A stretch of DNA of 34,531 nt from a virus: positions 1 through 34,531 of IMG/VR virus record IMGVR_UViG_3300009163_000101; one strand, written 5' to 3'. The notes under the pieces were generated by a model. It was not told the origin of the DNA, ran no database searches, and worked only from the letters and a program-made list of their open reading frames with translations. Positions within the stretch are counted from its first letter, which is position 1, and each line of letters begins with the position of its first letter. The translations under genes and the position numbers were made by a program. Shown in pieces: positions 13,450 through 28,837 of this stretch.

Positions 13450-13457
13450 TATAGATT

Positions 13458-14516: not shown

Positions 14517-14535
14517 TTTGATATAAGGAGAATTT

Positions 14536-15194: not shown

Positions 15195-15208
15195 TATTCT
15201 TTTAAAAT

Positions 15209-15270
15209 TAGCCGACCTTGGCTTGTTTATTTCGCAAGATTAGACAGGAACGGGGTCGGCTATATTTTTT
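15209..15270 (+). terminator. Long-loop terminator or small structured RNA
   Basis: A perfect 9-bp stem (TAGCCGACC 15209-15217 with GGTCGGCTA 15254-15262) closes a 36-base loop that contains its own 4-bp stem (CTTG 15222-15225, CAAG 15234-15237). TATTTTTTTT follows at once, as in an intrinsic terminator. The large loop is unusual. Confidence 0.65.
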
Positions 15271-15304
15271 TTATAAAATAAACATATTTGGCGTTTTGCT
15301 GTGG

Positions 15305-15333
15305 TATAGTTATTTTAACAACAGAAAGAAGGA
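15305..15333 (+). promoter_or_regulatory. Promoter -10 and ribosome binding site of the wHTH gene
   Basis: TATAGT at 15305-15310 lies just after the upstream terminator, and AGAAAGAAGGA ends a few bases before ATG 15338. Unlike its neighbours this gene has a normal leader. Confidence 0.45.
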
Positions 15334-15337
15334 TGCA

Positions 15338-15814
15338 ATGGAGAATGATCAGGATACTAAAAATTCAGAAAGTGGTGATTTTATAATTGACTCTGTTAAG
15401 TTAGATATGATTTATAATAAATTAATGGCAACTATAAAAACTCCACTTGATTTTAATGCCGAAAGAACAGCTACTTCTGTTATTCACGGATACTACAAAG
15501 GATGGGGTCTTGCCAAGACTGCCAAGTATTACAGTTTAGAAGAAAAGCTAGCAACAGATTACTGGAAGCATTTTAATTTTAAAATAAAGGAAGGAGGGAA
15601 AATTATGAGCAGAACAAAAACCAAACAAAACAATATTGTAAATTATTTGCAAAAAAATGTAGGGCAAATTGTTACTCCGGCAAAAGTTTCAACTGATGTC
15701 AGTATTTCAATTCCTACTTTTTACAATTTTTACAACGCTAACAGACAATTTTTTAATAAAGTTAAGCGTGGGCAATTTCAAATTGTTAACCCAAACCAAG
15801 AAGTAAGTATTTAA
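15338..15814 (+). CDS. Putative winged-helix DNA-binding protein
   Basis: 158 aa from ATG 15338, chosen because of the strong AAGAAGGA site; a longer reading from 15218 would run through the terminator. The N-terminal 85 residues are mixed and acidic; the C-terminal part (NIVNYLQKNVGQIVTPAKVSTDVSISIPTFYNFYNANRQFFNKVKRGQFQIVNP) has a helix-turn-helix plus wing pattern. A second in-frame ATG at 15605, preceded by a very strong GGAAGGAGGG site, could give a 69-aa product consisting only of this domain. It is followed closely by the speD leader. A regulator role is inferred. Confidence 0.6.
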   Translation: MENDQDTKNSESGDFIIDSVKLDMIYNKLMATIKTPLDFNAERTATSVIHGYYKGWGLAKTAKYYSLEEKLATDYWKHFNFKIKEGGKIMSRTKTKQNNIVNYLQKNVGQIVTPAKVSTDVSISIPTFYNFYNANRQFFNKVKRGQFQIVNPNQEVSI

Positions 15815-15826
15815 TTTATAAAAAGA

Positions 15827-15909
15827 CAGACAGTTGTTTTCTAAGGAGGATTCATGTTTACTAAAACAATAATAAATAAAAACAATACATCTTGGGAAAC
15901 AACTGTCTG
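15827..15909 (+). promoter_or_regulatory. Inverted repeat enclosing the leader-ORF ribosome binding site
   Basis: CAGACAGTTGTTT (15827-15839) and its exact reverse complement AAACAACTGTCTG (15897-15909) form a 13-bp stem, extendable inward by a U-G and a C-G pair. The enclosed loop carries AAGGAGGA and ATG 15854 of the leader ORF; the right arm lies within the leader ORF and 27 bases before the speD start. This is the layout of a translational control element. Confidence 0.65.
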
Positions 15910-15940
15910 CATCTTGAATGCCATTAGAGGTGTTCAATGA
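15854..15940 (+). CDS. 28-codon leader ORF overlapping speD start
   Basis: 28 aa (MFTKTIINKNNTSWETTVCI then LNAIRGVQ). It has the strongest Shine-Dalgarno site in the area (AAGGAGGA, 4 bases before ATG) while speD itself has none nearby. The stop overlaps the speD start as ATGA, so speD translation should depend on ribosomes finishing this ORF. The right arm of the inverted repeat encodes residues around ETTVC. Either a leader peptide or a very small protein. Confidence 0.6.
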   Translation: MFTKTIINKNNTSWETTVCILNAIRGVQ

Positions 15941-16326
15941 AAACTCCAATGCATAAGCATTTGTTGCTAAGAGGAATGATTCTTGACGCCCCAACTTCAG
16001 AACAAGTTGTGATTGACTGGCTAAGGGAGTTTGTTGATAAAATTGGGATGAAAGTCGTTCAGGGGCCATTTGCCTCAATGATCACAGAAGAGGGCAATCG
16101 CGGCCTTACTGCATCAGTAATGATTGAAACATCACATATTGCTTTTCATATTTGGGATGAAACAAACCCAGGTTTAATTCAATTTGATTTGTATACTTGC
16201 TCAGAGTTAAATTCACCGTATGTCTTTAAAGAGCTTGAAAAGTTTTTTAATTTTACAGAGTATCAATATATGATACTTGATAGGCAAACTGGGTTCAAAG
16301 TAATTGAAGGCTGCTTCTCAAGCTAA
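15937..16326 (+). CDS. speD: S-adenosylmethionine decarboxylase proenzyme (SpeD type)
   Basis: 129 aa, the usual size of the prokaryotic class 1B enzyme that makes decarboxylated SAM for spermidine synthesis. The proenzyme cleaves itself before Ser66 (ETSHIAFHIWDE), which becomes the pyruvoyl group; His71 and Cys88 (LYTCSE) match the processing and catalytic residues at nearly the same spacing as His68 and Cys83 of the Thermotoga enzyme. HLLLRG at 8-13 is also typical. Start is coupled to the leader ORF and the stop overlaps the next gene by one base. In a phage it would redirect SAM and polyamines to the infected cell, perhaps for DNA packaging. Confidence 0.9.
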   Translation: MKTPMHKHLLLRGMILDAPTSEQVVIDWLREFVDKIGMKVVQGPFASMITEEGNRGLTASVMIETSHIAFHIWDETNPGLIQFDLYTCSELNSPYVFKELEKFFNFTEYQYMILDRQTGFKVIEGCFSS

Positions 16327-16829
16327 TGGTTACGTCTAGGAGTGAAAAAAAACATATTGAGCCATGGATGTCTCGTTATGTTTATTCTTTAAAAAAAATG
16401 CTCCATCTTTCAGACTGGACAATTATCCTGAGCGAGGAGCCTTGCTCTCCTGATTGCCTTGCTGAGACTGACGTGGTTGGTGGTCAACATTTGGCCAGAA
16501 TGTTTTTAAATAAGTCTTACACAAAAGATACGCCTCAGAATATCCGAGGAACCGTTATCCATGAGCTTTTACATTGTCATCTATCACCAATATCAGAATT
16601 GTCAGTAGAAATACTAAAACCTTTATCCGATGATCTTGGTGGTAGTCGGGTTATTAAATCTGCTATTAACGGTATTGAGTATGAGACAGAAAGAAGTATT
16701 GATGCAATATCTGAAGCAATAGCAATATATTTTCCATTACCAAACATGCCTAAAGTAAGGAAGAAGCGAGTTTATAATAAGAAACCAGTACCGGTTAAAA
16801 AAAGGAGACCAAATGTCAAGACAAGATAA
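16326..16829 (+). CDS. HExxH zinc peptidase-like protein
   Basis: 167 aa. VIHELLHCHLSP contains His79-Glu80-x2-His83, a zinc-metallopeptidase motif, with further acidic residues in ERSIDAISEAIA as possible third ligand. The first part WMSRYVYSLKKMLHLSDWTI resembles small phage metallopeptidase-like proteins. The last 30 residues are strongly basic (RKKRVYNKKPVPVKKRRP) and could bind nucleic acid. The start overlaps the speD stop. Substrate unknown; could be a peptidase or a toxin-like protein. Confidence 0.65.
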   Translation: MVTSRSEKKHIEPWMSRYVYSLKKMLHLSDWTIILSEEPCSPDCLAETDVVGGQHLARMFLNKSYTKDTPQNIRGTVIHELLHCHLSPISELSVEILKPLSDDLGGSRVIKSAINGIEYETERSIDAISEAIAIYFPLPNMPKVRKKRVYNKKPVPVKKRRPNVKTR

Positions 16830-16893
16830 AATAACTCATGCAATTTATTTTACTCTGCATATAATCACTATTAGCATTTTGTTGCTAAAATAG
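16813..16893 (+). CDS. 26-aa hydrophobic small ORF
   Basis: ATG 16813 is preceded by a strong AAAGGAG site. The product has a short polar N-terminus and one membrane-like segment (HAIYFTLHIITISILLLK). It overlaps the end of the peptidase gene by 17 bases and its stop lies inside the next promoter's -10 box. Small but with better translation signals than several neighbours. Confidence 0.45.
   Translation: MSRQDKITHAIYFTLHIITISILLLK
16886..16891 (+). promoter_or_regulatory. -10 box TAAAAT, leaderless
   Basis: TAAAAT ends 6 bases before ATG 16898 and no ribosome binding site is present. TTAGCA at 16871 and TGCTAA at 16884 flank it as a small inverted repeat. Confidence 0.5.
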
Positions 16894-16897
16894 ATCT

Positions 16898-17302
16898 ATG
16901 TTAGAGCCAATATCTGCAGAGCTACAGGCTGAGGTAGAAAAACTTAAATTGCGAATCCCCGAAGCCTTTTCTAAAACAATTGATGTTGACGAAGGCTGGT
17001 ATCAGATTGTTGTTGATTGCAGCAAAGAAATTGACACCATCTATCCACATTATAAAATTTTACAAATTAAACAAAAATTTGGTGGTCTTAGATTTTATTT
17101 AGATATTCATGGAGATTCTACAAATGAGCAGCGTAATCAGATATATGAAGTAATTCGTAAATACGAGAAGCTCGCTGAAAAGACATGCGAAGCAACTGGG
17201 CTACCAGGCGTTCCTATGAAATCACCTTATGGCTGGGTTAAAACTTTAAATCCAGAATATGCTGCTTCAACAGGACATTATTCTAAGTACGTAATCGCAT
17301 AG
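16898..17302 (+). CDS. Conserved phage hypothetical (KFGGLRFY family)
   Basis: 134 aa. The central GWYQIVVDCSKEID ... ILQIKQKFGGLRFYLD ... TCEATGLPG ... GWVKTLNPEYAA pattern matches a widespread phage/bacterial hypothetical family. Most relatives, as I recall them, have two cysteine pairs in the last third; here only one cysteine (TCEATG) remains, so the metal site seems lost. Ends 2 bases before the oxygenase gene. Function unknown. Confidence 0.65.
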   Translation: MLEPISAELQAEVEKLKLRIPEAFSKTIDVDEGWYQIVVDCSKEIDTIYPHYKILQIKQKFGGLRFYLDIHGDSTNEQRNQIYEVIRKYEKLAEKTCEATGLPGVPMKSPYGWVKTLNPEYAASTGHYSKYVIA

Positions 17303-17304
17303 CA

Positions 17305-17871
17305 ATGATAGAAGTAATTGAAGATATAATTTCAATTCGTGAACAAATTGAATTATACACATATGTTCGGGACAGCAAATTTGCCTACAGGTTTTACAAT
17401 ACCCACATCTTTACTGAAGACGAAGATCCAAGATTTACTCATGCCCCGCAGCAATTGTCACATCAGCTATATAACTGCGAAGAGGAAAAGTCTTCAACGC
17501 ATATTCAAATTCTTAGGCCAATCTTTGATGTGTTGAAAAATAAATTTGGGAGTATTGATTTATTACGGGCTAAAGTCAATTTGACATTCCCATATCCCCC
17601 AATGGTTAATTATGAACCTCAAATACCACATTTAGATATGCAATACGATAACGGGGAGCCTGTAGATCATAAAGTGCTTTTGTATTACATAAACGACTCA
17701 GATGGGCCAACTTACTTCTTTAATGAACTTTATGAAGTTGTAAACAGTATCCAGCCAAAACAGGGAGTGGGTGTAATCTTTGATGGCGATCAAATACACG
17801 CAGCTTCAAACCCTGTATTTAATCCTTTTAGATTTGCACTAAATATCAACTTTCAAGTATCAGTTCAATGA
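17305..17871 (+). CDS. 2-oxoglutarate/Fe(II)-dependent oxygenase
   Basis: 188 aa. The double-stranded beta-helix signature is visible: His109-x-Asp111 (IPHLDMQ) and His165 (QIHAASNP) as iron ligands, and Arg176 (NPFRFALN) as the 2-oxoglutarate anchor. The order RAKVNLTFPYP ... PHLDM ... VLLYYINDSDGPTYFFNE ... GVGVIFDGDQIHA is as in phage and cyanophage prolyl-hydroxylase-like oxygenases. Substrate unknown: protein, nucleotide or small molecule are all possible. Tightly coupled to the preceding gene (2-base gap). Confidence 0.88.
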   Translation: MIEVIEDIISIREQIELYTYVRDSKFAYRFYNTHIFTEDEDPRFTHAPQQLSHQLYNCEEEKSSTHIQILRPIFDVLKNKFGSIDLLRAKVNLTFPYPPMVNYEPQIPHLDMQYDNGEPVDHKVLLYYINDSDGPTYFFNELYEVVNSIQPKQGVGVIFDGDQIHAASNPVFNPFRFALNINFQVSVQ

Positions 17872-17877
17872 TATAAT
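17872..17877 (+). promoter_or_regulatory. -10 box TATAAT, leaderless
   Basis: A consensus TATAAT ends 6 bases before ATG 17884 (spacer GTTAAC) and overlaps the end of the oxygenase reading frame. No ribosome binding site. Confidence 0.6.
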
Positions 17878-17883
17878 GTTAAC

Positions 17884-18651
17884 ATGCCAGAATTAAATGC
17901 GTCAGTCCCCCCTGTTGAATGTTTTGTCCGTGGAAATTTTTTAAGGAATCAAGTTGATAGTCATGAGCTAAAATTCCCTTGTGTAATCTTTGGTGTTGCA
18001 TCCATACCTGGCAGAGCCCCAGTATTTCATTTTTTGATGGAAGATGGCGGGGTTTGGTGGAGAGCTCCTATTAATGCTTTCTGTAGTTCAAAAGATTCCC
18101 CCGAGGTTGATTTACATGATCTGGTAATGTGGAACAGTTTTTCTTCACACATAACAGTTACCGTGTTTGAGCGTATGCGCGGAATGACGATGAAGTACAT
18201 TGACCGTCATAAAAAAGAAACAAGCGGGAAGTATGTTTTTACTCTTGATTGGCACTCCCCGGATATAAATGTAATTGATGCAGGGTATTCGGTAAACCCA
18301 GGTCAACACAAATGCGGCCATGTAATTGAAAGAACAGATGGAAATTATGCTATTCAGCCAAACAATAGGGTTCGGTTGTGGGATCCCGCATATACAACCA
18401 AGAAGGGCGAGAACCTTATCAATAGATTAATTAATACAAAAATTTGGGGTGTTGAAGATGGGGATAAATGGATAACCTCAGACGATGACCGATACGATTA
18501 TGATGTGGTGGCGCAAAATCAAGAAATTACTAACAGTGGCTTGACTGGTTTGACTGACTTGGGTGGCTTGGCTGATTTGCAAAAACCCAAAGATTATGAC
18601 AAAGGCATTGAAGACCTTAAACGAGCTTACGAGAAGTATTCCCAAGATTAA
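17884..18651 (+). CDS. Hypothetical, possibly conserved in phages
   Basis: 255 aa, probably soluble. Features: PCVIFGVASIPGRAPVFHFLMEDGGVWWRAPINAFC near 30-70, FERMRGMTMKYIDRHKK near 100, a DWHSPD motif, then CGHVIERTDGNYAIQPNNRVRLWDPAYTT, and an acidic C-terminus ending in a helix after a short GLTGLTDLGGLADLQ low-complexity stretch. The leaderless promoter gives it its own transcription start. Family not named with confidence. Confidence 0.65.
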   Translation: MPELNASVPPVECFVRGNFLRNQVDSHELKFPCVIFGVASIPGRAPVFHFLMEDGGVWWRAPINAFCSSKDSPEVDLHDLVMWNSFSSHITVTVFERMRGMTMKYIDRHKKETSGKYVFTLDWHSPDINVIDAGYSVNPGQHKCGHVIERTDGNYAIQPNNRVRLWDPAYTTKKGENLINRLINTKIWGVEDGDKWITSDDDRYDYDVVAQNQEITNSGLTGLTDLGGLADLQKPKDYDKGIEDLKRAYEKYSQD

Positions 18652-18655
18652 ATGA

Positions 18656-18661
18656 TATAAT
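18656..18661 (+). promoter_or_regulatory. -10 box TATAAT, leaderless
   Basis: TATAAT ends 6 bases before ATG 18668 (spacer GGACAT). It mirrors the arrangement at 17872. Confidence 0.6.
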
Positions 18662-18667
18662 GGACAT

Positions 18668-18850
18668 ATGCCTAACTATCAATATGTTTGTAAAAAATGT
18701 GATTATTGGTACAACGAAATTCGTTCAATAAACCAAGACCACGAATCAACCCCGTGCCCAACTTGCGGGGATGAATTAAAGCAAGCCTACAGTCCCCCCA
18801 TGATCAGTCTCAAAGGACCAGGCTTTTACAAAAACACTCGCAACAAATAG
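18668..18850 (+). CDS. FmdB-type zinc ribbon protein
   Basis: 60 aa. PNYQYVCKKCDYWY and CPTCGDEL give Cys8, Cys11, Cys30, Cys33; the ending PPMISLKGPGFYKN (GxGFY) is diagnostic of the FmdB-like putative regulatory zinc ribbon family. Proteins of this family are common in phages; a regulatory or nucleic-acid-binding role is assumed but not proven. Last gene of the auxiliary block. Confidence 0.85.
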   Translation: MPNYQYVCKKCDYWYNEIRSINQDHESTPCPTCGDELKQAYSPPMISLKGPGFYKNTRNK

Positions 18851-19081
18851 TACAAAGCCCGCTACACGCTCATACAAGCCCCAGGATGATTTTAAAACCC
18901 CAAAACCTTGTATCGGGTGCATACCCATTTTAAAACGCACCACGCCACCTTATAATAAGCCTATAGGGACTTCTACGACTGGGAGATAACCCTTAACCCC
19001 GAAAAAATAGAAAAATATTTTTTTACCCAAGTCCATAGATAATTATTAACAATAAAAAGTAATAACATCTATACTTAGATC
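18851..19081. other. Gene-free stretch before the small RNA
   Basis: No convincing ORF or tRNA. It contains GGTGC/GCACC arms around 18920-18950 and an AT-rich promoter-like part. With the next two features it makes up the gene-free interval 18851-19414. Confidence 0.5.
19046..19075 (+). promoter_or_regulatory. Promoter of the putative small RNA
   Basis: TTAACA (19046-19051) and TATACT (19070-19075) are separated by 18 bases, a good housekeeping-sigma match, with no start codon shortly downstream. Confidence 0.5.
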
Positions 19082-19160
19082 CGGCAGCGAATTTCGCTAT
19101 CTTAGGACCGTTATAGGTAGAGATTGCATCTGAATAGACTTCAGATGCAATTTCTATTTA
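19082..19160 (+). ncRNA. Putative small RNA, about 75 nt
   Basis: Expected start near 19082. The transcript would contain the AGCGA/TCGCT hairpin (19086-19098 area) and end in a perfect 12-bp hairpin (ATTGCATCTGAA 19123-19134, TTCAGATGCAAT 19140-19151, loop TAGAC) followed by a U-rich tail. No ORF of useful length fits. It does not resemble an RNA family I know. Confidence 0.45.
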
Positions 19161-19269
19161 TACCCCCAAATTTCCAAACCAAATAAAACCAAAAATTTAG
19201 TACGCATCCAATTATAGCTATACGCCATATTTTCACCACACACAAAACGTCTGTCTCTCATGGTCAATG

Positions 19270-19371
19270 CTGGTGTGCAAATATGCTTCAGCCATATTAA
19301 ACTCCAGTGTATAGGGCAACGCTTAAATTCAAGAATTGAGCATACTTTCTAATCGTAATGCTATTCTATTT
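19270..19371 (+). promoter_or_regulatory. Cassette 1 dyad and promoter
   Basis: Imperfect dyad around AATATG-CTTCAGC-CATATT (19280-19298) flanked by CTGG/CCAG, then AATTGAGCATACTT at 19334 and TATTCT at 19362-19367. It is the most diverged copy of the repeated unit. Confidence 0.6.
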
Positions 19372-19414
19372 ATATCAAGCGAAACCGAAGTAACTTGATA
19401 GGAAGGGGCTGAGT

Positions 19415-19600
19415 GTGTCTGACACGCTTGCGAATTTCCCTATCTACCTCAAGCAGGTCGTAAGCACTAGTTGCTTAGTCTGTGGGAAGGACACTTCAGC
19501 AAACGGAGATTATAATCCGTTTGCTGTAGGGTTCGCCAGAGTAGATGGCGATTCAGCCAACGGATACGAGATGTTTCATCTCGTATGCGTTGAGGGCTAG
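19415..19600 (+). CDS. Cassette 1: small putative zinc protein with hairpin-rich gene
   Basis: 61 aa with GTG start; AGGAAGGGG is upstream. CLVCGK (around 20-25) and the final FHLVCVEG give a CxxC...HxxC zinc-binding candidate. The reading frame itself is full of perfect hairpins: 19461-19477 (6 bp), 19497-19526 (11 bp) and 19558-19592 (5+10 bp around TTT), which is unusual for protein-coding DNA, so a structured RNA function instead of, or in addition to, the protein must be considered. Confidence 0.5.
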   Translation: MSDTLANFPIYLKQVVSTSCLVCGKDTSANGDYNPFAVGFARVDGDSANGYEMFHLVCVEG

Positions 19601-19613
19601 AGAAGCCCAAAGA

Positions 19614-19648
19614 AAGCCCCGAGCCGAAAGGCTCGGGGCTTTTCTTTT
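19614..19648 (+). terminator. Cassette 1 terminator
   Basis: Perfect 10-bp GC-rich stem GCCCCGAGCC/GGCTCGGGGC with GAAA tetraloop, followed by TTTTCTTTT. Confidence 0.9.
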
Positions 19649-19654
19649 GCCTTT

Positions 19655-19755
19655 TGGGGGGAGGGCAAGGATGCTTAAGCATCTTGCATACACCCCCGTA
19701 CACGATACGATCATTTTCCGGAATTGAGCATACTTACAAAGCAAAATACTATAGT
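19655..19755 (+). promoter_or_regulatory. Cassette 2 dyad and promoter
   Basis: Dyad GGGGG...CAAGGATGC-TTAA-GCATCTTG...CACCCCC (19655-19697) with ATGCTTAAGCAT palindromic core, then AATTGAGCATACTTAC (19722) and TATAGT (19750-19755), TTGAGC to -10 spacing 20 bases. Confidence 0.7.
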
Positions 19756-19788
19756 AGTACTTGTAAGCCACAAAAGAAAGGAGCCAAT

Positions 19789-19890
19789 ATGGAAGTTGTT
19801 ATTTACGACTTGCCAGCAGTAATCGCAGTAATCGGATTAAGTTGCGTTGCCTTTATCCTTGCGAAAGTGCTGTTGCGCAGGAATAGTTAG
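19789..19890 (+). CDS. Cassette 2: 33-aa single-TM protein
   Basis: 33 aa: an acidic N-terminal MEVVIYDLP, one strong membrane helix (AVIAVIGLSCVAFILAKVLL) and a basic RRNS end. AGAAAGGAG lies 6 bases before ATG 19789, which fixes the start. It has its own promoter and terminator, so it is probably a real, strongly expressed membrane microprotein. Function unknown. Confidence 0.7.
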   Translation: MEVVIYDLPAVIAVIGLSCVAFILAKVLLRRNS

Positions 19891-19895
19891 AGTTG

Positions 19896-19937
19896 AAAAA
19901 ACCCTTCAAGCCTTCGGGTTTGAAGGGTTTTTTTTGT
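19896..19937 (+). terminator. Cassette 2 terminator
   Basis: Stem ACCCTTCAAGCC/GGTTTGAAGGGT with TTCG loop and a run of eight T. Confidence 0.9.
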
Positions 19938-19949
19938 CCCTGATTTCGT

Positions 19950-20047
19950 GGGAGGGCAGGGATGCTTCAGCATTCTTGCGCACACCCATACACGGCGTAT
20001 GACCATTCCAGAGAATTGAGCATACTTACAAGATGAGATGATATTGT
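19950..20047 (+). promoter_or_regulatory. Cassette 3 dyad and promoter
   Basis: Dyad GGGAGGGCAGGGATGC-TTCA-GCATTCTTGCGCACACCC class, then AATTGAGCATACTTAC (20014) and TATTGT (20042-20047) at the same fixed spacing. Confidence 0.7.
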
Positions 20048-20079
20048 ATTTCTTGTGAGGTAACAACAAAGGAGAGTTT

Positions 20080-20286
20080 ATGGAAGTAGATGAATGGATT
20101 CCCCCGTTACCTATGGGAATACAGTTAAAGAATAAGATAGATGAATTGGATAAAGTTCATTCGCAAATAGTGAAGGGTATTATCACAGTTCGTGAAGCGC
20201 TTAGTCAGCGAATACGAATAATGACTGAGTGCCAAGCGATACTTCAAAAGATGGTGCATTACGAACTAACAGGCGAAATAAAGTAA
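20080..20286 (+). CDS. Cassette 3: small helical protein
   Basis: 68 aa. After EVDEWIPPLPMG the rest is a continuous helix (IQLKNKIDELDKVHSQIVKG, then ALSQRIRIMTECQAILQKMV), probably a coiled coil. AAAGGAG is 7 bases before ATG. Own promoter and terminator. Family not recognised. Confidence 0.7.
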   Translation: MEVDEWIPPLPMGIQLKNKIDELDKVHSQIVKGIITVREALSQRIRIMTECQAILQKMVHYELTGEIK

Positions 20287-20310
20287 GACCACAACAACCA
20301 CACCTCACAG

Positions 20311-20344
20311 TCCCCCAAGCCTTCGGGCTTGGGGGATTTTTTTG
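20311..20344 (+). terminator. Cassette 3 terminator
   Basis: TCCCCCAAGCC/GGCTTGGGGGA with TTCG loop and seven T. The same stem sequence recurs in cassette 5 and, shortened, in cassette 4. Confidence 0.9.
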
Positions 20345-20356
20345 TGTCTGATTTCG

Positions 20357-20455
20357 TGGGTGGTCAAGGATGCTTCAGCATTCTTGTGCACACCCACACA
20401 CGGCATACGGGCATTTACGAGAATTGAGCATACTTACTCGGCGTGATGCTATTGT
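20357..20455 (+). promoter_or_regulatory. Cassette 4 dyad and promoter
   Basis: Dyad GTGGGTGGTCAAGGATGC-TTCA-GCATTCTTG...CACCCAC, then AATTGAGCATACTTAC (20422) and TATTGT (20450-20455). Confidence 0.7.
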
Positions 20456-20487
20456 ATTTCTTGTCGGGGTAGCCTGAGGAGGCAACT

Positions 20488-20703
20488 ATGACTAAGGTAA
20501 TAGACACAACAGCAATGAATAACGAGACTCTAGGCAAACTCGTTGGTTTGTTAAATCAAGAAATTGCGCTTCAATCTGAAAAGATTGATTATCTTGCTAA
20601 GCATATAGGCAAACTTAATCAAGTCATTGAGTGTCTCGTAGAGATGACCAATGAAATGGAAGTGACGCTCTATGCGCCAGCAGGGCTAGCACCTAAGAAA
20701 TAA
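20488..20703 (+). CDS. Cassette 4: small helical protein
   Basis: 71 aa. Mostly one long amphipathic helix (TLGKLVGLLNQEIALQSEKI, then DYLAKHIGKLNQVIECLVEM) followed by a short Pro/Ala tail. GAGGAGG lies 7 bases upstream of ATG. Likely an oligomerising adaptor-type microprotein; function unknown. Confidence 0.7.
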   Translation: MTKVIDTTAMNNETLGKLVGLLNQEIALQSEKIDYLAKHIGKLNQVIECLVEMTNEMEVTLYAPAGLAPKK

Positions 20704-20748
20704 TTCACCTAGCAACGGATTACCAAACCCCGATATCCGATTGCGAAA

Positions 20749-20782
20749 GAAACCCCAAGCCTTCGGGCTTGGGGTTTTTTTT
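20749..20782 (+). terminator. Cassette 4 terminator
   Basis: AACCCCAAGCC/GGCTTGGGGTT with TTCG loop and eight T. Confidence 0.9.
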
Positions 20783-20794
20783 GTGCCTGGTTTC

Positions 20795-20893
20795 GCGGGA
20801 GGACAAGGATGCTTAAGCATCTTGTGCACACCCGCACACGACATATGGCCATTCACAAGAATTGAGCATACTTACTTCACACAATGATATTGT
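20795..20893 (+). promoter_or_regulatory. Cassette 5 dyad and promoter
   Basis: Dyad GCGGGAGGACAAGGATGC-TTAA-GCATCTTG...CCCGC, then AATTGAGCATACTTAC (20860) and TATTGT (20888-20893). Confidence 0.7.
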
Positions 20894-20925
20894 ATTACTT
20901 GTAAGCCACAACCAAAGGAGAAATG

Positions 20926-21081
20926 ATGAAAGAAATGGATGAGAGTTGGGATGCCGAAACTTCTCGCAAGATAAAACAAAAGCGAGACTTGGCGAGCAAG
21001 ATGGAGTTGCAAAAAGCAATTGCAAAAAGGATGCATGATCTTAAAAGAAAAGAATTGTTCGGTGATGCAGCCGATGAGTGA
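20926..21081 (+). CDS. Cassette 5: 51-aa charged helical protein, paralogue of 24446-24592
   Basis: 51 aa from ATG 20926, with AAAGGAG 5 bases before it; ATG 20923 is too close to that site. Sequence MKEMDESWDAETSRKIKQKR then a basic helix ending HDLKRKELFGDAADE. About two thirds of positions match the minus-strand gene at 24446-24592 (MKExxESWDAETSRxIK ... MHDLKRKExFGD). Highly charged, no cysteines or TM. Function unknown. Confidence 0.75.
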   Translation: MKEMDESWDAETSRKIKQKRDLASKMELQKAIAKRMHDLKRKELFGDAADE

Positions 21082-21106
21082 TAAAGGTTAGAATAAAAAC
21101 CCCCAG

Positions 21107-21140
21107 TCCCCCAAGCCTTCGGGCTTGGGGGATTTCTTTT
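21107..21140 (+). terminator. Cassette 5 terminator
   Basis: TCCCCCAAGCC/GGCTTGGGGGA with TTCG loop and TTTCTTTT tail. Confidence 0.9.
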
Positions 21141-21149
21141 GTTATTTCA

Positions 21150-21247
21150 CGGGTGGGCAAGATGCTTAAGCGATCTTGCGCACACCCGCACACGATACAT
21201 CGGCATTCTCAGGAATTGAGCATACTTACAAGATGAAATGATATTGT
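21150..21247 (+). promoter_or_regulatory. Cassette 6 dyad and promoter
   Basis: Dyad GGGTGGGCAAGATGCTTAAGC...GATCTTGCGCACACCC, then AATTGAGCATACTTAC (21214) and TATTGT (21242-21247). The leader then forms TGTAGAGC/GCTCTACA, an extra hairpin just before the start codon. Confidence 0.7.
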
Positions 21248-21289
21248 ATTTCTTGTAGAGCAATAACGCTCTACAGAACGGGGATTATA

Positions 21290-21541
21290 ATGGTAGATAA
21301 AATTAAGGCTGATGAGCGAACTATTCAATCGCTCATAGAGATAATGTATCCCATACGGGATGCTGATGGAGATGGCAACATTGAGCGTTTCCACCATTTG
21401 CGTGAGTGTTTCATAGATGATGTCTATGATTACATTGACGGGATGACGAATCGCACTCAGTTGGCTGAGAGCCTATCAAAATGGCTGAGTGTTTATTACG
21501 GAACAATTTTGGTCGTTCTCAAAAATGTCCCGATTAAATAA
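21290..21541 (+). CDS. Cassette 6: small acidic protein
   Basis: 83 aa, helical and acidic: DADGDGNIERFHHLRECFID resembles an EF-hand-like loop (DxDGDGxIE) within a helix-loop-helix, followed by DVYDYIDGMTNRTQLAESLS and a hydrophobic C-terminal stretch (VYYGTILVVLKNVPIK). Only GGGG about 9 bases before the ATG serves as ribosome binding site. Calcium binding is speculative. The gene contains several short perfect hairpins. Confidence 0.65.
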   Translation: MVDKIKADERTIQSLIEIMYPIRDADGDGNIERFHHLRECFIDDVYDYIDGMTNRTQLAESLSKWLSVYYGTILVVLKNVPIK

Positions 21542-21552
21542 TAAAAGTTTCA

Positions 21553-21577
21553 ACCCCTACGCATCCAGCGTGGGGGT
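21553..21577 (+). terminator. Cassette 6 terminator-like hairpin without U-tract
   Basis: ACCCCTACGC/GCGTGGGGGT with ATCCA loop (one G-U pair). Unlike the other cassettes it is followed by AAAACTCC, so it may terminate poorly and let transcription continue into cassette 7. Confidence 0.5.
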
Positions 21578-21635
21578 AAAACTCCACCCCTTATGCTTCA
21601 GCTGGATGTTTGTTTTTAGTATATGCTCACATTCT

Positions 21636-21756
21636 CATACCCCGGCCAAAATACGGCTGGCGTGCGGGAAATGCTTCAGCGTTTTTTGTACGCCAGCGCA
21701 GGGTATGGCAATTCATTAGGTAAATTGAGCATACTTACTCGGCACAATGATATTGT
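21636..21756 (+). promoter_or_regulatory. Cassette 7 dyad and promoter
   Basis: Outer arms CATACCC/GGGTATG (21636, 21701) and inner CTGGCGT...AAATGC-TTCA-GCGTTT...ACGCCAG, then AATTGAGCATACTTAC (21723) and TATTGT (21751-21756). Confidence 0.7.
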
Positions 21757-21808
21757 TTTAGATATCAGCAAGGCGCTGATGATAGAAAAACACAATATGA
21801 GGTAATCA

Positions 21809-22108
21809 ATGAAAATCAATCTAAGTGACATCCAATCACTCATTGTTGGTCGGGGGCGTAAGCCTTACGAAAATGCTGAGTTATTGGCAGACATACAGGC
21901 AATCAATCCTGCCGACCCTAACGATGGCATCATATGGGATGATGCTCAGGGCGACCCCGAGGATGAGGAATACGCCAATCACAAGGCGAAGTTTCGCAGT
22001 CGGGCTGAGGCAGTCGCAGACAAGGCAGGGCTTGACATCAGCACTGTTTGGCTCAGCGATGGTCGGTTGGTAATCCGATTGAAAACGAAAAAAACTAAAA
22101 CTAAGTAA
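21809..22108 (+). CDS. Cassette 7: small actinophage-type protein, copy A
   Basis: 99 aa. MKINLSDIQSLIVGRGRKPY ... HKAKFRSRAEAVADKAGLDI, then STVWLSDGRLVIRLK and a Lys/Thr tail. The final VW-x-DGRLVI-LK pattern and the preceding helix with RSRAEAVA resemble a small family common in actinophages that may bind nucleic acid. About 80% identical to the next cassette's protein, so a tandem duplication. GAGG lies 8 bases before ATG. Confidence 0.75.
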   Translation: MKINLSDIQSLIVGRGRKPYENAELLADIQAINPADPNDGIIWDDAQGDPEDEEYANHKAKFRSRAEAVADKAGLDISTVWLSDGRLVIRLKTKKTKTK

Positions 22109-22138
22109 TTAGTTTTAAATAATCCCAAGAATACAATT

Positions 22139-22168
22139 AGCCCCACGCTTAACGGCGTGGGGCTTTTT
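22139..22168 (+). terminator. Cassette 7 terminator
   Basis: GCCCCACGC/GCGTGGGGC with 6-base loop and five T. Confidence 0.9.
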
Positions 22169-22209
22169 GCTGTCGTTCAATTTTTGCTAAAGCAAAATTG
22201 TACGACAGC
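22169..22209. repeat. Second dyad type, copy 1
   Basis: GCTGTCGT...CAATTTTTGC-TAAA-GCAAAATTG...ACGACAGC, directly after the cassette 7 terminator. A near-identical dyad follows cassette 8 at 22774-22813, so this is part of the duplicated unit. Confidence 0.65.
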
Positions 22210-22266
22210 CTGCATGGGTCCTTGATCCCTGTTTCTTTAGTACACATTCTCAACACACAAGCGGGA

Positions 22267-22366
22267 CTGGTGTACGCAAAATGCTTCAGCATTTTTTGTA
22301 CACCAGCACAGGCTTAGGCAATTCATTGGGTAAATTGAGCATACTTACTTAATAGAATGATATTGT
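22267..22366 (+). promoter_or_regulatory. Cassette 8 dyad and promoter
   Basis: CTGGTGTAC-GC-AAAATGC-TTCA-GCATTTT-TT-GTACACCAG (22267-22306), then AATTGAGCATACTTAC (22333) and TATTGT (22361-22366). Confidence 0.7.
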
Positions 22367-22417
22367 TTATCTCGTTGGCAAAGTGCCAATGAGACACAAC
22401 TAGAAAGAAGATAACTA

Positions 22418-22714
22418 ATGAAGATTAACCTAAGCGACATTGAGTCGTTGATAGTTGGGCGTGGGCGTAAGCCTTATGAGAATGCCGAACTATTGGCAGA
22501 TATCAAAGCCATTAACCCACTTGACCCGAATGACGGGATTATTTGGGAAGATGCTCAAGGGAATCCCGAAGATGAAGAATACCCAAACCACAAAGCGAAA
22601 TTTCGCTCTCGTGCGGAAGCGGTAGCAGATAGCGCAAACCTTGCCATTTCAACGGTTTGGCTTCAAGACGGTAGGCTCGTAATCAAGTTGAAGACGGGCA
22701 AGAAAAAGAAATAA
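22418..22714 (+). CDS. Cassette 8: small actinophage-type protein, copy B
   Basis: 98 aa, paralogue of the cassette 7 product with the same order of blocks (MKINLSDIESLIVGRGRKPY, DPNDGIIWEDAQGNPEDEEY, NHKAKFRSRAEAVADSANLA, TVWLQDGRLVIKLKTGKKKK). The DNA differs at many third positions although the proteins are conserved, which indicates selection on both copies. A perfect 14-bp palindrome AGCGAAATTTCGCT lies within the gene. Confidence 0.75.
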   Translation: MKINLSDIESLIVGRGRKPYENAELLADIKAINPLDPNDGIIWEDAQGNPEDEEYPNHKAKFRSRAEAVADSANLAISTVWLQDGRLVIKLKTGKKKK

Positions 22715-22741
22715 ATTAACTATTTATTAGTTAAGTAAATT

Positions 22742-22773
22742 AGCCCCAAGCCCGAAAGGGTTTGGGGCTTTTT
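22742..22773 (+). terminator. Cassette 8 terminator
   Basis: AGCCCCAAGCCC/GGGTTTGGGGCT with GAAA loop and five T. Confidence 0.9.
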
Positions 22774-22813
22774 GCTGTCGTTCATTTTTTGCTGAAGCAA
22801 AAATGTACGACAG
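22774..22813. repeat. Second dyad type, copy 2
   Basis: CTGTCGT...CATTTTTTGC-TGA-AGCAAAAATG...ACGACAG; counterpart of the dyad at 22169. Confidence 0.65.
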
Positions 22814-22860
22814 GCCTTGTGCTAAACATTACCTTACTTTTTTTAGTACAATTACTAATT

Positions 22861-22938
22861 ATGATTGAAGATTTAGGCGGGTGCTCCAAAAAGAAATGTA
22901 TTTGTTTTTGTACACCCGTCAAATTTTTTTATTATTAA
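22861..22938 (+). CDS. Possible 25-aa leaderless Cys-rich ORF
   Basis: TACAAT ends 8 bases before ATG 22861, in the same context (AGTACAATTA) as the 13458 gene. The product MIEDLGGCSKKKCICFCTPV ends KFFYY and has four cysteines. Its second half overlaps the terminator below. Could equally be chance. Confidence 0.25.
   Translation: MIEDLGGCSKKKCICFCTPVKFFYY
22876..22928 (+). terminator. Terminator closing the cassette array
   Basis: GGCGGGTG (22876-22883) pairs with CACCCGTC (22913-22920), with AAAAAGAAA/TTTGTTTTT inside, followed by AAATTTTTTT. The GGGTG/CACCC arms resemble the cassette dyads. Confidence 0.65.
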
Positions 22939-23625: not shown

Positions 23626-23835
23626 TTATCTTATTGCAAACCACCAAGCATCTTCTATTGTTTCTTCTTTTGTTTCTGTGTAGGGTGTGTTTACTTCTTT
23701 GATCATCTTTTCTACTTGTTTGCGGCTTAGTTCCTGGAATAAAGCTTCTAATAGTTTGTCTGTAGCGTTATAGCAGTATCTATCTCTATAAGCATCTATT
23801 AATCTTTGAACCGGTTTTTTTTCATATTCTTCCAT
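23626..23835 (-). CDS. Hypothetical small helical protein
   Basis: 69 aa, charged and helical (QRLIDAYRDRYCYNATDKLL, EALFQELSRKQVEKMIKEVN), ending IEDAWWFAIR. AAAGGATAAAACA before ATG 23835 is a good ribosome site that overlaps the upstream stop. Last gene of the leftward small-gene operon. Not recognised. Confidence 0.6.
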   Translation of the reverse strand: MEEYEKKPVQRLIDAYRDRYCYNATDKLLEALFQELSRKQVEKMIKEVNTPYTETKEETIEDAWWFAIR

Positions 23836-23839
23836 TGTT

Positions 23840-24115
23840 TTATCCTTTATCTATTGATTTGATAATATCTTTCAACTCTATTGCTTTAAGATATCTTTCA
23901 AGTAGCGCTGTATTATATAAATAATCTGAAGTAAGGCGATCTGCTTTCTTATTCAATATTTGAAGCATTAAGCTATTTTCATCATCTGATTGTATTAATG
24001 CCTCTATCTGACTCTCAGTTGATTCAATACTTAAATTTAAATTATAGATCGTATCTTTAATCTTCGCTATTTCCCCCATTAATTCCTCACTAGAATACAA
24101 TTCATTTATTAGCAT
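23840..24115 (-). CDS. Hypothetical coiled-coil protein
   Basis: 91 aa from ATG 24115 (GGAAGGA 5 bases upstream; ATG 24118 is an alternative). Almost entirely coiled coil (IAKIKDTIYNLNLSIESTES, QIEALIQSDDENSLMLQILN). Overlaps the end of the upstream gene by about 14 bases. Function unknown. Confidence 0.6.
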   Translation of the reverse strand: MLINELYSSEELMGEIAKIKDTIYNLNLSIESTESQIEALIQSDDENSLMLQILNKKADRLTSDYLYNTALLERYLKAIELKDIIKSIDKG

Positions 24116-24233
24116 CATTATCCTTCCTTATAACCCAATGTTCCTCTATGTCTTTCTTTAAAGTCCAACCTTTTTCTTTAGTCCAGTAATATATGAACTC
24201 AGGCTCTTCCTTTACCCATTTGTATTTATTCAT
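24102..24233 (-). CDS. 43-aa hypothetical protein
   Basis: 43 aa: MNKYKWVKEEPEFIYYWTKE then KGWTLKKDIEEHWVIRKDND-ANK. GAGG is 6 bases before ATG 24233. Start overlaps the upstream stop by 8 bases and its end overlaps the downstream start, as in the rest of the operon. Rich in Trp, Lys and Glu; compact alpha/beta fold likely. Function unknown. Confidence 0.55.
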   Translation of the reverse strand: MNKYKWVKEEPEFIYYWTKEKGWTLKKDIEEHWVIRKDNDANK

Positions 24234-24453
24234 AAATAACCTCTGTTATTTCAAATAGATTCTCTACCGAAACATTAGATTCCTCTAATTCTTCTACTAT
24301 ATGGCCTAGAATATCTTCTACCCAAGTTAATGCTGATATATACCCTTCAAAATAAGATACATAGGTAGCATCATCTTTATAAGTTATTTCCTTTTCCCCG
24401 TCTTTTATACGATCTGATACTTCGTGTAAAAGATTCTTTATATTATCATTCAT
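24226..24453 (-). CDS. Hypothetical acidic protein
   Basis: 75 aa from ATG 24453 (GTG 24456 possible). Helical, with YFEGYISALTWVEDILGHIVEE, a pattern seen in small phage helical proteins. Overlaps the preceding gene by a few bases, so probably coupled. Not recognised. Confidence 0.55.
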   Translation of the reverse strand: MNDNIKNLLHEVSDRIKDGEKEITYKDDATYVSYFEGYISALTWVEDILGHIVEELEESNVSVENLFEITEVIYE

Positions 24454-24592
24454 CACCGAACATTTCCTTTCTTTTTAAATCGTGCATCCTTATTTTAATT
24501 GCTTTCTGCAATTCTATCCTTTTCATTAAATCTTGCTTTTCCTTTATTCTACGAGATGTCTCCGCATCCCAACTTTCATTCATTTCTTTCAT
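24446..24592 (-). CDS. 48-aa charged helical protein, paralogue of the cassette 5 gene
   Basis: 48 aa: MKEMNESWDAETSRRIKEKQ, a basic helix, ending MHDLKRKEMFGDE. AAGGAG lies 8 bases before ATG 24592. It is clearly homologous along its whole length to the plus-strand gene at 20926-21081. Here it sits inside an overlapping operon without its own promoter or terminator, in contrast to the array copy. Function unknown. Confidence 0.75.
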   Translation of the reverse strand: MKEMNESWDAETSRRIKEKQDLMKRIELQKAIKIRMHDLKRKEMFGDE

Positions 24593-24655
24593 TGATCTTC
24601 TCCTTTTGTTAATTGTTTATCCTTATGATTATATATCTGATATATTAGGGATATA

Positions 24656-25315
24656 TCAGTCGTCAGATTCACCCAAATACTCAGGCATTCCCATATCATT
24701 ACACAAAGCAATTTTGTCATCAATTAACATTTGTAAAAGAGTAACAGCATATCTTGGACTGATTGAATTAAAATCAATGTTATAATAAGAATCATCCCAA
24801 TCATCATCACCACCATCAAAAGTATGATCTTCTTCTAATTCTAATTCCGGGAATCTAGAATCTTCCATATATAACAAATATTTCCAAACAGACCTATGAT
24901 CTCCATAATAAAGATTTTTACCTTCTTCTGCATTAAATCCTAAAAAATCGTTTGATGCTTCTTCAAAATAATCAGAAATATGCTTTGCCGATGTTACAGA
25001 ATTTAACCCTAAAAAAGGATTTTTCCAATCATTTGCAACAGCAGTAGAAAAACCAGCAATACAACCTACTGAATCACAATTAAACAAATCAGTAGTTAAT
25101 TCTTCTAAACTAAGTTGTTTTATTTCCCGACCCCAAGCACTATCATTTATTGGGTCAAAATCTGGATCTATAACTTTACCAACAAAAGTTGACATATTAA
25201 ATCTTTTCTTCCCATCAACTTTAATAGCATCAATTACTTTTTGTATATTTTTCTTATTATACTTATTTGTAGTTCTTTCTTCAGAAATGCTATCTGGGAT
25301 ACTATTTGCGTTCAT
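24656..25315 (-). CDS. Phage hypothetical of the CIAGF/LGL family, copy 1
   Basis: 219 aa. Conserved blocks: NIQKVIDAI, RFNMSTFVG, FNCDSVGCIAGFSTAVAND, NDFLGFNAEEGKNLYYGDHR, SVWKYLL, then a long acidic stretch, and SPRYAVTLLQMLIDDKI. The C-x3-GCIAG core followed by an LGL/LYY helix matches a common phage hypothetical family. Paralogous to 25916-26518. AGGA is 9 bases before ATG 25315. Function unknown. Confidence 0.7.
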   Translation of the reverse strand: MNANSIPDSISEERTTNKYNKKNIQKVIDAIKVDGKKRFNMSTFVGKVIDPDFDPINDSAWGREIKQLSLEELTTDLFNCDSVGCIAGFSTAVANDWKNPFLGLNSVTSAKHISDYFEEASNDFLGFNAEEGKNLYYGDHRSVWKYLLYMEDSRFPELELEEDHTFDGGDDDWDDSYYNIDFNSISPRYAVTLLQMLIDDKIALCNDMGMPEYLGESDD

Positions 25316-25505
25316 ATCTTTGTCCTTTTTTTATGTGTTTAATGATTAATTGAATTGTTTCATTATTAATTGATATTAGATTATCCATAGTCATTTTCCA
25401 AGGGAAATCAGCATTCATTACATCTTGTAATTCAAGAATTGAATCAACGATTTCTTCCATTATGTCACGCTCTAAGCGATAATCAATTTTTCTCACTTTA
25501 CCCAT
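25302..25505 (-). CDS. Hypothetical small protein
   Basis: 67 aa, helical and charged (RLERDIMEEIVDSILELQDV, then ISINNETIQLIIKHIKKGQR). AAGGA upstream of ATG 25505, which overlaps the previous stop (TAATG). Not recognised. Confidence 0.6.
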   Translation of the reverse strand: MGKVRKIDYRLERDIMEEIVDSILELQDVMNADFPWKMTMDNLISINNETIQLIIKHIKKGQRYERK

Positions 25506-25735
25506 TACAATTCCTTACTGTTTGCCACAATAAAAAACCTAACATCATCTTCAACCATTTTGCCAAACAAAGCACCTGGCCCATTACCTTCTTCATCTTG
25601 AGATGGATAAATAATATTCCCATCATCTAAAAGAATACCTAAACAAGGATAAGGACTATTCTCCCAACCTTCTGCTTCAATATCTTCTTTACTTAAAGTA
25701 ATAATATCTACTATTTTACGGCCTATAAGATTCAT
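25505..25735 (-). CDS. Hypothetical small protein
   Basis: 76 aa. N-terminal NLIGRKIVDIITLSKEDIEA, then CLGILLDDGNIIYPSQDEEG and DDVRFFIVANSKEL; small beta-rich domain resembling phage proteins that describe a ligand-binding beta barrel, but no family is assigned. AAAGGAG is 8 bases before ATG. Start overlaps the upstream stop (ATGA). Confidence 0.6.
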   Translation of the reverse strand: MNLIGRKIVDIITLSKEDIEAEGWENSPYPCLGILLDDGNIIYPSQDEEGNGPGALFGKMVEDDVRFFIVANSKEL

Positions 25736-25911
25736 TCATCTTCTCCTTTATCTTGTGAATTTTCTTCTTCCCAATCGCAATATGAACAAATACCATCTTC
25801 ATTATTCCAGCTATTACAAGTACATCTGTTATAAGGATTAGATGTTCTAATTTCATGCTTTAAATCTTCGTATTCATTATCTGTCATATCTTCAGGTGCT
25901 TTTCTTCTCAT
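25732..25911 (-). CDS. 59-aa zinc-binding candidate
   Basis: 59 aa. RCTCNSWNNEDGICSYCDWE carries C-x-C and C-x2-C, a likely zinc knuckle, flanked by acidic helices. AAAGGA lies 7 bases before ATG 25911, and the stop overlaps the next start as ATGA. Function unknown. Confidence 0.65.
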   Translation of the reverse strand: MRRKAPEDMTDNEYEDLKHEIRTSNPYNRCTCNSWNNEDGICSYCDWEEENSQDKGEDE

Positions 25912-25915
25912 TGTT

Positions 25916-26518
25916 TTATCCTTTAATAACTATTTTAAGTTCAGCTTGGCCGTATTCATTTGCTAATATTAACTCTCCAGAAATTATCATCTCTAAAGCT
26001 TTAATTGCCATTTCTGGTGTAATACTATTAAGATCAATATTTGCATCAGAATCATCATCATAATAACTTAAATCATCTTCATTCTCATAATTCCCACTCC
26101 ATTCAGAATTTGAAGTATCTATAGATAAATAACTAAAATCAGGATGATTATATTTTAACATTTTCCAAACAGAATCATGCTCTGCATAATATAAGTTTTT
26201 ACCTTCTGCTTTAGTAAGACCCAAGTATTCGTTAGACCTTTCTTCATAATGAATACCGTTTGAATTTACTAGTTCTTTATCTACTACCCAATTATAAGAT
26301 AAAGCAGAAGCAAAACCTGCAATACAACACGTTGTATTGCAATCAAATATGTCTTTACCAAGATCTTCATCTGTTATATTTAACGATGTTACTTGTTCTA
26401 AATAAACATCATCATGATTATGATCATTTAAAGATCCTATATAAGTTGACATATTAAAATGAGAATGCTCATTAAATGCAATAGCATCAATTACTTTTTG
26501 TATATTTTCTTTATTCAT
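25916..26518 (-). CDS. Phage hypothetical of the CIAGF/LGL family, copy 2
   Basis: 200 aa. Same order as copy 1 at 24656: NIQKVIDAIAFN, HFNMSTYIG, FDCNTTCCIAGFASALSY, NEYLGLTKAEGKNLYYAEHD, SVWKML, an acidic Asp/Glu/Ser-rich stretch and TPEMAIKALEMIISGEL. The two copies are diverged (perhaps a third identical) and separated by three small genes, so an old duplication. AAGGGG before ATG 26518. Function unknown. Confidence 0.7.
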   Translation of the reverse strand: MNKENIQKVIDAIAFNEHSHFNMSTYIGSLNDHNHDDVYLEQVTSLNITDEDLGKDIFDCNTTCCIAGFASALSYNWVVDKELVNSNGIHYEERSNEYLGLTKAEGKNLYYAEHDSVWKMLKYNHPDFSYLSIDTSNSEWSGNYENEDDLSYYDDDSDANIDLNSITPEMAIKALEMIISGELILANEYGQAELKIVIKG

Positions 26519-26891
26519 TGGTTTCCCCTTTGCCCCATATGGTGTTTATTTCTTTTTTAATTTCTCTTTTAACAATATTAATGCAGTTATTCTTTTGTAA
26601 ATAATCTAAAAGCGTATAACTTAATATTTTATTTTCATGTATACAGCAAAAAATTGATGGATTATATTTATTCAATATAGTTATACAACCTTTACCTGCA
26701 CAAATACCTGAATCTAATTTAGAGACATCAGCCCCGGCTAAAGATAAAGCATTATGTGCGTTTTGCTTTTGTCTTTGTTTTCTTCTTTCAAGATGGGATT
26801 TATGTAGTTCTGGATTACTTTTAAGTTTATTCCATTTAATTGTTGCTAATTCACTAGTTGAATAATAAGGATCAACTTGTCTTTGGCCCAT
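26511..26891 (-). CDS. Putative DNA-binding protein with actinobacterial zinc motif
   Basis: 126 aa. The middle GICAGKGCITILNKYNPSIF followed by CCIHENK gives C-x4-C...YNP...CC-x-H. This resembles the C-xxCG-x-LSxYNP-xx-C-xx-H element found near helix-turn-helix domains of many actinobacterial regulators and their phages. The N-terminus is basic and helical (ERRKQRQKQNAHNAL) and the C-terminus helical. No clear Shine-Dalgarno site before ATG 26891. Regulator role inferred. Confidence 0.6.
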   Translation of the reverse strand: MGQRQVDPYYSTSELATIKWNKLKSNPELHKSHLERRKQRQKQNAHNALSLAGADVSKLDSGICAGKGCITILNKYNPSIFCCIHENKILSYTLLDYLQKNNCINIVKREIKKEINTIWGKGETNE

Positions 26892-26903
26892 AAATTTGAT
26901 TAC

Positions 26904-27764: not shown

Positions 27765-27766
27765 AT

Positions 27767-28822: not shown

Positions 28823-28837
28823 TGCAATCCAATCTCA

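Follow-up and report, generated by a model that had tools for sequence, protein, structure and literature searches.

The virus record IMGVR_UViG_3300009163_000101 of IMG/VR contains an array of eight small units on the + strand, at positions 19265–22769 of the 34,531-nucleotide (nt) stretch analyzed here, which we call the window. Each unit comprises a dyad, the 14-mer AATTGAGCATACTT, a TAnnnT -10 hexamer, a leader, a stretch resembling a Shine-Dalgarno sequence and a single short open reading frame (ORF). Judged by their sequence, the units are probably autonomous monocistronic cassettes that would be transcribed by the host RNA polymerase under a phage-specific regulator.

The 14-mer occurs as an exact word, always on the + strand, at 19334, 19722, 20014, 20422, 20860, 21214, 21723 and 22333; no further site in the window matches it with two or fewer mismatches, and six others with three mismatches correspond to the chance level. 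An earlier sequence-only reading had described eight units sharing a dyad and a longer, 16-letter word. The eight units with dyad, 14-mer and ORF stand, and the 16-mer ending in TTAC is exact in seven of them, unit 1 reading TTTC. The same reading placed a TATTGT hexamer at one distance throughout: the gap between TTGAGC and the -10 is indeed exactly 20 bp in all eight units, and TATTGT itself is found in six (TATTCT in unit 1, TATAGT in unit 2). A covariance model derived from the dyads of every phage, those of the window among them, gives the eight dyads E-values of 3e-12 to 3e-8. The only other significant matches in the 34.5 kb are three in the same region, a reverse-oriented dyad behind each of units 7 and 8 and a weak terminal dyad, which are additions to the features listed before. 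A hairpin with a T run is clear in seven units and lacks the T run in unit 6 (21554–21576), as expected from the remark that all but one unit end in a strong terminator; intrinsic terminators number 15 against 4.1 in shuffles. The genes had been called mostly unrelated, and only those of units 7 and 8 proved to be paralogues, the remaining six being mutually unrelated. The features of the array are as follows:

19265–19310, +, unit 1 dyad (cmsearch R1, 35.6 bits)
19334–19367, +, unit 1 promoter-like element (TTGAGC at 19336, TATTCT at 19362–19367)
19415–19600, +, unit 1 ORF, 61 aa, GTG start, CxxC motif, without family match
19612–19643, +, unit 1 terminator (terminator scan)
19653–19699, +, unit 2 dyad (covariance model)
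19722–19755, +, unit 2 promoter-like element (-10 TATAGT)
19789–19890, +, unit 2 ORF, 33-aa hydrophobic microprotein; a similar 35-aa protein in unit 1 of related locus L038
19896–19933, +, unit 2 terminator (terminator scan)
19944–19991, +, unit 3 dyad (covariance model)
20014–20047, +, unit 3 promoter-like element (TATTGT)
20080–20286, +, unit 3 ORF, 68 aa
20309–20338, +, unit 3 terminator (terminator scan)
20352–20399, +, unit 4 dyad (covariance model, 47 bits)
20422–20455, +, unit 4 promoter-like element (box and -10 alignment)
20488–20703, +, unit 4 ORF, 71 aa; homologue in L038
20748–20781, +, unit 4 terminator
20791–20837, +, unit 5 dyad (covariance model)
20860–20893, +, unit 5 promoter-like element (box and -10 alignment)
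20923–21081, +, unit 5 ORF, 52 aa
21105–21134, +, unit 5 terminator (terminator scan)
21145–21191, +, unit 6 dyad (covariance model)
21214–21247, +, unit 6 promoter-like element (box and -10 alignment)
21290–21541, +, unit 6 ORF, 83 aa
21554–21576, +, unit 6 hairpin without T run, the exception in the array (from sequence; uncalled by terminator scan)
21652–21699, +, unit 7 dyad (covariance model)
21723–21756, +, unit 7 promoter-like element (box and -10 alignment)
21809–22108, +, unit 7 ORF, 99 aa, KINL family
22139–22164, +, unit 7 terminator (terminator scan)
22167–22213, -, reverse-oriented dyad after unit 7 (41.5 bits on -, 22.2 on +)
22236–22252, +, second box TTTAGTACACATTCTCA, lacking a -10, 99 bp before the TTGAGC of unit 8
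22262–22309, +, unit 8 dyad (covariance model)
22333–22366, +, unit 8 promoter-like element (box and -10 alignment)
22418–22714, +, unit 8 ORF, 98 aa, KINL paralogue of unit 7
22742–22769, +, unit 8 terminator (terminator scan)
22772–22818, -, reverse-oriented dyad after unit 8 (covariance model)
22873–22923, strand unassigned, terminal weak dyad without gene (covariance model)

The motif version of the window was found in one other contig, G001. Relatives were collected with the 255-aa gene that lies directly upstream of the array, which gave 80 more loci, and unbiased k-mer counts downstream of this gene revealed arrays built on other repeated words. Once aligned, these words (TTGAATACACATTCTCA, TTGAGTACATATCTCA, TTGAGTGCGTTTC and others) display the same architecture, each with TAnnnT at 20 or 21 bp. 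After removal of duplicates, the set comprised 11 distinct phages with 86 aligned units, 6–10 per phage; an extra pattern match in L046 at 9898 falls outside the units. The spacer to the -10 is uniform within each phage, being all 20 or all 21. Since units were gathered by a pattern that fixes the TTGA start and a narrow spacer range, the presence of TAnnnT is partly by construction; the pattern does not impose the uniform choice of 20 or 21 per phage, the inner letters specific to each phage or the distance to the dyad. Out of sample, the dyad model by itself recovered two further arrays, in L069 and L045, which brings the phages to 13 in total. By inspection, nearly all of their units carry TTTAGT at the equivalent distance from the dyad, with the -10 20 bp on. 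On this comparison the trait is family-wide, with at least 12 related viruses carrying such an array, each with a private version of the putative switch.

The pattern TTGARYACRYWTY-N13-15-TANNNT is confined to arrays in the searched records and gave zero matches in the reversed control. A scan of genome contigs for the box returned only single scattered matches and no repeated box among the matches listed; there is therefore no sign of the box as a class of host promoters or within integrated arrays. Against isolated phages, the array had no DNA-level match beyond short terminator-like ones, and the KINL protein was also unmatched.

Further repeats were noted around these arrays. A word nearly identical to TTTAGTACACATTCTCA is found in promoters of L046 and L095, and the array ends of L047 and L095 carry an element similar to the terminal dyad of the window. 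A possible second promoter ahead of the dyad, with the box TTTAATACACATTCTCA about 98–102 bp upstream, was considered and dropped because the box has no -10 after it. The array of L067 (9321–14680) has a second palindrome, TTAGG-N4-CCTAA, between dyad and TTGA box. Other repeated words, many of them intergenic, occur in L065 (11638–16501), L054 (358–5516), L093 (11133–12264), L059, L036, L044 and L079. In the related loci, TCGCTCGCTTGCTCGCCC stands 12 times upstream of TTGACA-like promoters, and further words are TAGGATTCGTGACC, TTGTGACCCGACTACG and the palindromic TGTAATATTACA.

The dyad keeps a nearly constant distance from the promoter. From the outer edge of its right arm to the TTGA box we measured 28–30 bp, with 29 in nearly all cases, in the ten phages that allowed it (a few units and phage L067 fall outside the edge pattern used), and the intervening spacer is barely alike in sequence, with a mean identity of 0.54–0.67 by class. 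That the length is kept although the sequence is not suggests that a complex bound to the DNA stands in fixed phase with RNA polymerase.

The two dyad arms show covariation. Among 70 distinct dyads, 84% of the cells are paired, and changes on both sides of a pair were counted in 127 cells against 48.6 in shuffles, with 0 of 500 shuffles reaching 127. One dyad pair reads UA 41 times, GC 27 times and CG twice, and is never broken. Pairing also exceeds within-phage shuffles in all ten of ten phages (P 0.026 or lower), so that copies in one genome vary yet stay complementary. When pairing is scored in a strand-neutral way, G.T outnumbers A.C by 114 to 43 (77 to 33 when each position is counted once per phage, p 3e-5), and the + strand fold is the more stable in 80 of 86 dyads. 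Because the arms covary and G.T is preferred over A.C on the + strand, a single-stranded + strand hairpin, RNA or DNA, seems to be under selection. A mutational C-to-T bias is a possible source of the G.T excess; spacer composition, checked for this bias, differs between phages.

Dyad, box, -10 and spacing are phage-specific, whereas genes and leaders are common to several phages. Promoters of unrelated genes within one phage share an identity of 0.80, compared with 0.73 for promoters of homologous genes in different phages, and the corresponding values for the dyad are 0.72 and 0.66. The contrast is sharpest in L050 and L051, whose backbones are 95.7% identical over 6.4 kb: three cassette genes are 98–100% identical, whereas the promoter identity is 0.73, the dyad identity 0.60–0.80 and the spacing 21 versus 20. 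In the alignment of the first two shared cassettes, identity begins at about +1, the expected transcription start. Selection by a phage-specific trans-acting factor appears a better reading than gene conversion, because conversion should also homogenize the 29-bp spacer, which is not seen. The gene content of the arrays turns over between phages, in agreement with the gain and loss of whole cassettes. The proposal that the units are independent promoter-gene-terminator cassettes draws strong support from the -35/-10 geometry fixed in 13 phages, the leaders alike from about +1, the terminators, and the promoter left behind in gene exchange.

Only the array carries this promoter class, and each phage has its own version of it; the units therefore most likely form one regulon under a phage-specific factor. 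In the arrangement that we favor, host RNA polymerase would start about 7 nt past the TAnnnT -10 and make one short mRNA per cassette, often with a 5' hairpin, then a Shine-Dalgarno sequence and one ORF, stopping at the intrinsic terminator. The predicted promoter combines an over-long 20 bp spacer with a conserved box that overlaps and follows the -35, and the inner edge of the hairpin-forming dyad is held about 29 bp upstream of the -35. A phage-specific trans-acting factor on dyad and box would switch the whole array as one regulon; a WhiB-like protein in contact with the vegetative sigma factor is one candidate for it. Genes would be gained, lost and exchanged as transcribed parts, with the promoter part staying matched to the resident regulator. 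Such a spacer is too long for a sigma-70-type promoter working unaided, which makes activation, or some other regulator, a likelier explanation than mere promoter strength; we infer activation rather than repression.

Several observations weigh against this reading. Spacers of 20–21 bp are unusual for promoters: TAnnnT is present in every aligned unit (partly by construction), and the -35 stands not at 16–18 bp, as in sigma-70-type promoters, but as TTGA or TTTA at 20–21 bp. A standard sigma-70 scan of the window (spacer 16–18) left the array promoters uncalled, their spacer being 20. A + strand bias such as the dyad shows is unexpected for a plain double-stranded operator, the reverse dyads behind units 7 and 8 have no promoter, and units within one phage are related by descent and so are not independent observations. 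As for the regulator, the favored reading is in line with finding no sigma-70 region 2 (Sigma70_r2) in 19 records of up to 148 kb and WhiB in 9, but all records may be fragments, so that the absence of a sigma factor is not proven. WhiB proteins stand at 44–48% between all phage pairs compared and do not specifically track promoter type, a divergence that is compatible with private specificity.

The covarying arms, across phages and inside single phages, would also be expected if the dyads acted as RNA, namely as hairpins that form when transcripts read through, serving as an insulating terminator, a processing site or a stabilizer, with the promoters being ordinary host ones. We consider this unlikely. 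In its favor, the G.T excess over A.C and the steadier + strand fold in 80 of 86 dyads fit it, the dyads are placed behind terminators, and the reverse dyads face the convergent - strand genes. However, an RNA insulator needs no fixed 29 bp to the -35 box, as seen across ten phages; the dyad is located between the preceding terminator and its own transcription start, and its core sequences are phage-specific. The private consensus and fixed geometry would instead suit a double-stranded operator for a dimeric phage repressor, similar to ESAS (extended start-associated sequence) elements or stoperators, with the array silent until induction; half sites of cluster K ESAS likewise vary by subcluster (PMC3203893). 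We regard this as doubtful, since half-site recognition predicts neither compensated arm variation within a phage nor the G.T bias. No tyrosine integrase or recombinase (PF00589) was found in 15 records, possibly partial, which thus give no sign of lysogeny, and a repressor was not identified.

One imperfect, strand-polar hairpin per cassette, cassette turnover and reverse dyads flanking the last units recall single-strand recombination sites of the integron attC type that capture cassettes. Yet the RYYYAAC...GTTRRRY pair is present in 0 of 86 dyads, PF00589 in 0 of 15 records, and the exchanged stretches start at about +1, away from the dyad, which together with the unexplained fixed coupling to the promoter makes this very improbable. 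To mere recent duplication without function we give almost no credence: the window does contain repeat families (D1, D2, D4 and D6, 65–84% identity), but the same elements recur at conserved spacing in 13 phages despite diverged spacer sequence, and terminators and Shine-Dalgarno sequences are retained. Cassettes under a phage-specific regulator of host RNA polymerase thus remain our preferred reading. A more novel and distinctly speculative proposal is that the dyad is a single-stranded or extruded DNA hairpin of the non-template strand, which a phage-specific activator would need at over-long-spacer promoters of host RNA polymerase, and that array-wide divergence in hairpin, box, -10 and spacing would keep the regulons private.

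The most frequent cassette family, KINL, occupies 18 of 86 units; wherever present it lies at the 3' end of the array, which is the case in most arrays. Its predicted fold is confident (predicted local distance difference test, pLDDT, 83) and resembles one uncharacterized viral protein; the model had no match in the PDB at E 0.001 or better. A second recurrent family starts with CxxC, and most remaining genes are singletons. Searches of the cassette proteins against Pfam, PHROGs and PDB sequences gave no credible match, and leaders, dyads and array reached no Rfam family at gathering thresholds, with sub-threshold matches that were terminator-like or chance. The proteins may serve in host takeover. 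In G010, a 167-aa protein of the leftward gene block (82094–82597, -) has a start like that of KINL cassette proteins (MTKINLNDISGL); it is only 42% identical in G018, compared with 70–95% for most of its neighbours.

The 34.5 kb record carries a capsid-portal-ribonucleotide reductase block on the - strand and a + strand operon from 11219 to 18850, followed by the array and, on the right, convergent - strand genes (23626–34435). Its host is probably an actinobacterium, because the major capsid protein shares about 51% identity with its counterparts in Streptomyces phages and WhiB genes are present in 9 of 19 related or neighbouring records; whiB is also carried by Nanopelagicales phages (PMC10202952). 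At the divergent start of the + strand operon (11098–11120), TACTTAGCATACTTAGCATACTT occurs in tandem, and GCATACTT is common to this site and the array box. The operon region also encodes a complete FtsZ-like protein of 336 aa (12401–13411, +; assigned by sequence motifs, no PHROG match) and a gene resembling S-adenosylmethionine decarboxylase (15937–16326, +; phrog_3125).

Directly before the array lies a small-RNA-like unit (19046–19168, +) with TTAACA-N18-TATACT, the core CTTAGGACCGTTATAG and a strong hairpin (z -7.2). It recurs in L038, L103, L047, L050, L051, L095, L243, L279 and many other viral loci; a scan with the core gave at least 120 stretches, some of them chance matches in coding sequence. 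The core is kept and the flanks diverge. Together with its flank the core can pair with 23S rRNA, and the core itself is complementary to a conserved stretch of that molecule: a query resembling the L103 version aligns with the antisense strand of the annotated E. coli 23S gene over 28 nt at 96% (about gene positions 1908–1935), and the variants CTTGGGACC and GTTGTAG retain pairing via G-U. No Rfam family reached its gathering score. The unit could possibly be a phage RNA against ribosomes.

The array would place nearly a hundred small, sequence-defined phage genes under one promoter class across the family and would allow candidate host-takeover proteins to be listed for phages of hard-to-grow actinobacteria. 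Concerted promoter evolution within a phage, together with genes that move between phages, offers a way to study how phages keep their regulons private. The paired, strand-polar dyad at fixed promoter distance is unexplained by the known phage promoter types compared here (cluster K ESAS, SPO1 and N4). If the non-template DNA hairpin proved real, it would be an actinophage counterpart of N4 hairpin promoters, serving the host enzyme.

Early promoters of N4 contain small, strand-specific hairpins that overlap the promoter and are read by the virion RNA polymerase. The array likewise sets a strand-specific hairpin at a fixed place from the start, here of about 36 nt and upstream of a -35/-10 promoter. 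Like the array, integron attC arrays have a single imperfect, strand-polar hairpin for every cassette, and these hairpins are uniform within a genome; the present array differs in its lack of attC core sites, in the absence of a tyrosine recombinase from the records searched, and in having its own promoter for each cassette. The SPO1 host-takeover module, to which the sequence-only reading had likened the array, consists of mostly small clustered genes that have promoters of their own and strong ribosome-binding sites; its 26 genes are partly in operons, experimentally early and in some cases growth-inhibiting, and the portion of the source at hand describes no shared hairpin-box-promoter unit such as that of the array (PMC6873191). 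By sequence, the array too is a cluster of small genes with their own promoters. The nearest known system in concept is the ESAS of cluster K, also named in that reading, in which a repeated intergenic inverted repeat and promoter hexamers precede several mostly unrelated actinophage genes, with a repeat consensus that differs between subclusters (PMC3203893; PMC11373665). The likeness holds for promoter-linked inverted repeats and their varying consensus, and not for the defining features. ESAS stand beside a 13-bp start-associated sequence (SAS), GGGATAGGAGCCC, at the start codon (3–9 bp before it) and have SigA-like -35/-10 hexamers spaced 17–18 inside the inverted repeat element (PMC3203893; PMC11373665), and their arms do not covary, the repeats being without base-pairing support (PMC3203893). 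Here, the SAS had 0 matches at up to two mismatches, the spacing is 20 in the window and 20–21 in relatives, the arms covary, the dyad lies 29 bp upstream, and nearly every unit has its own terminator.

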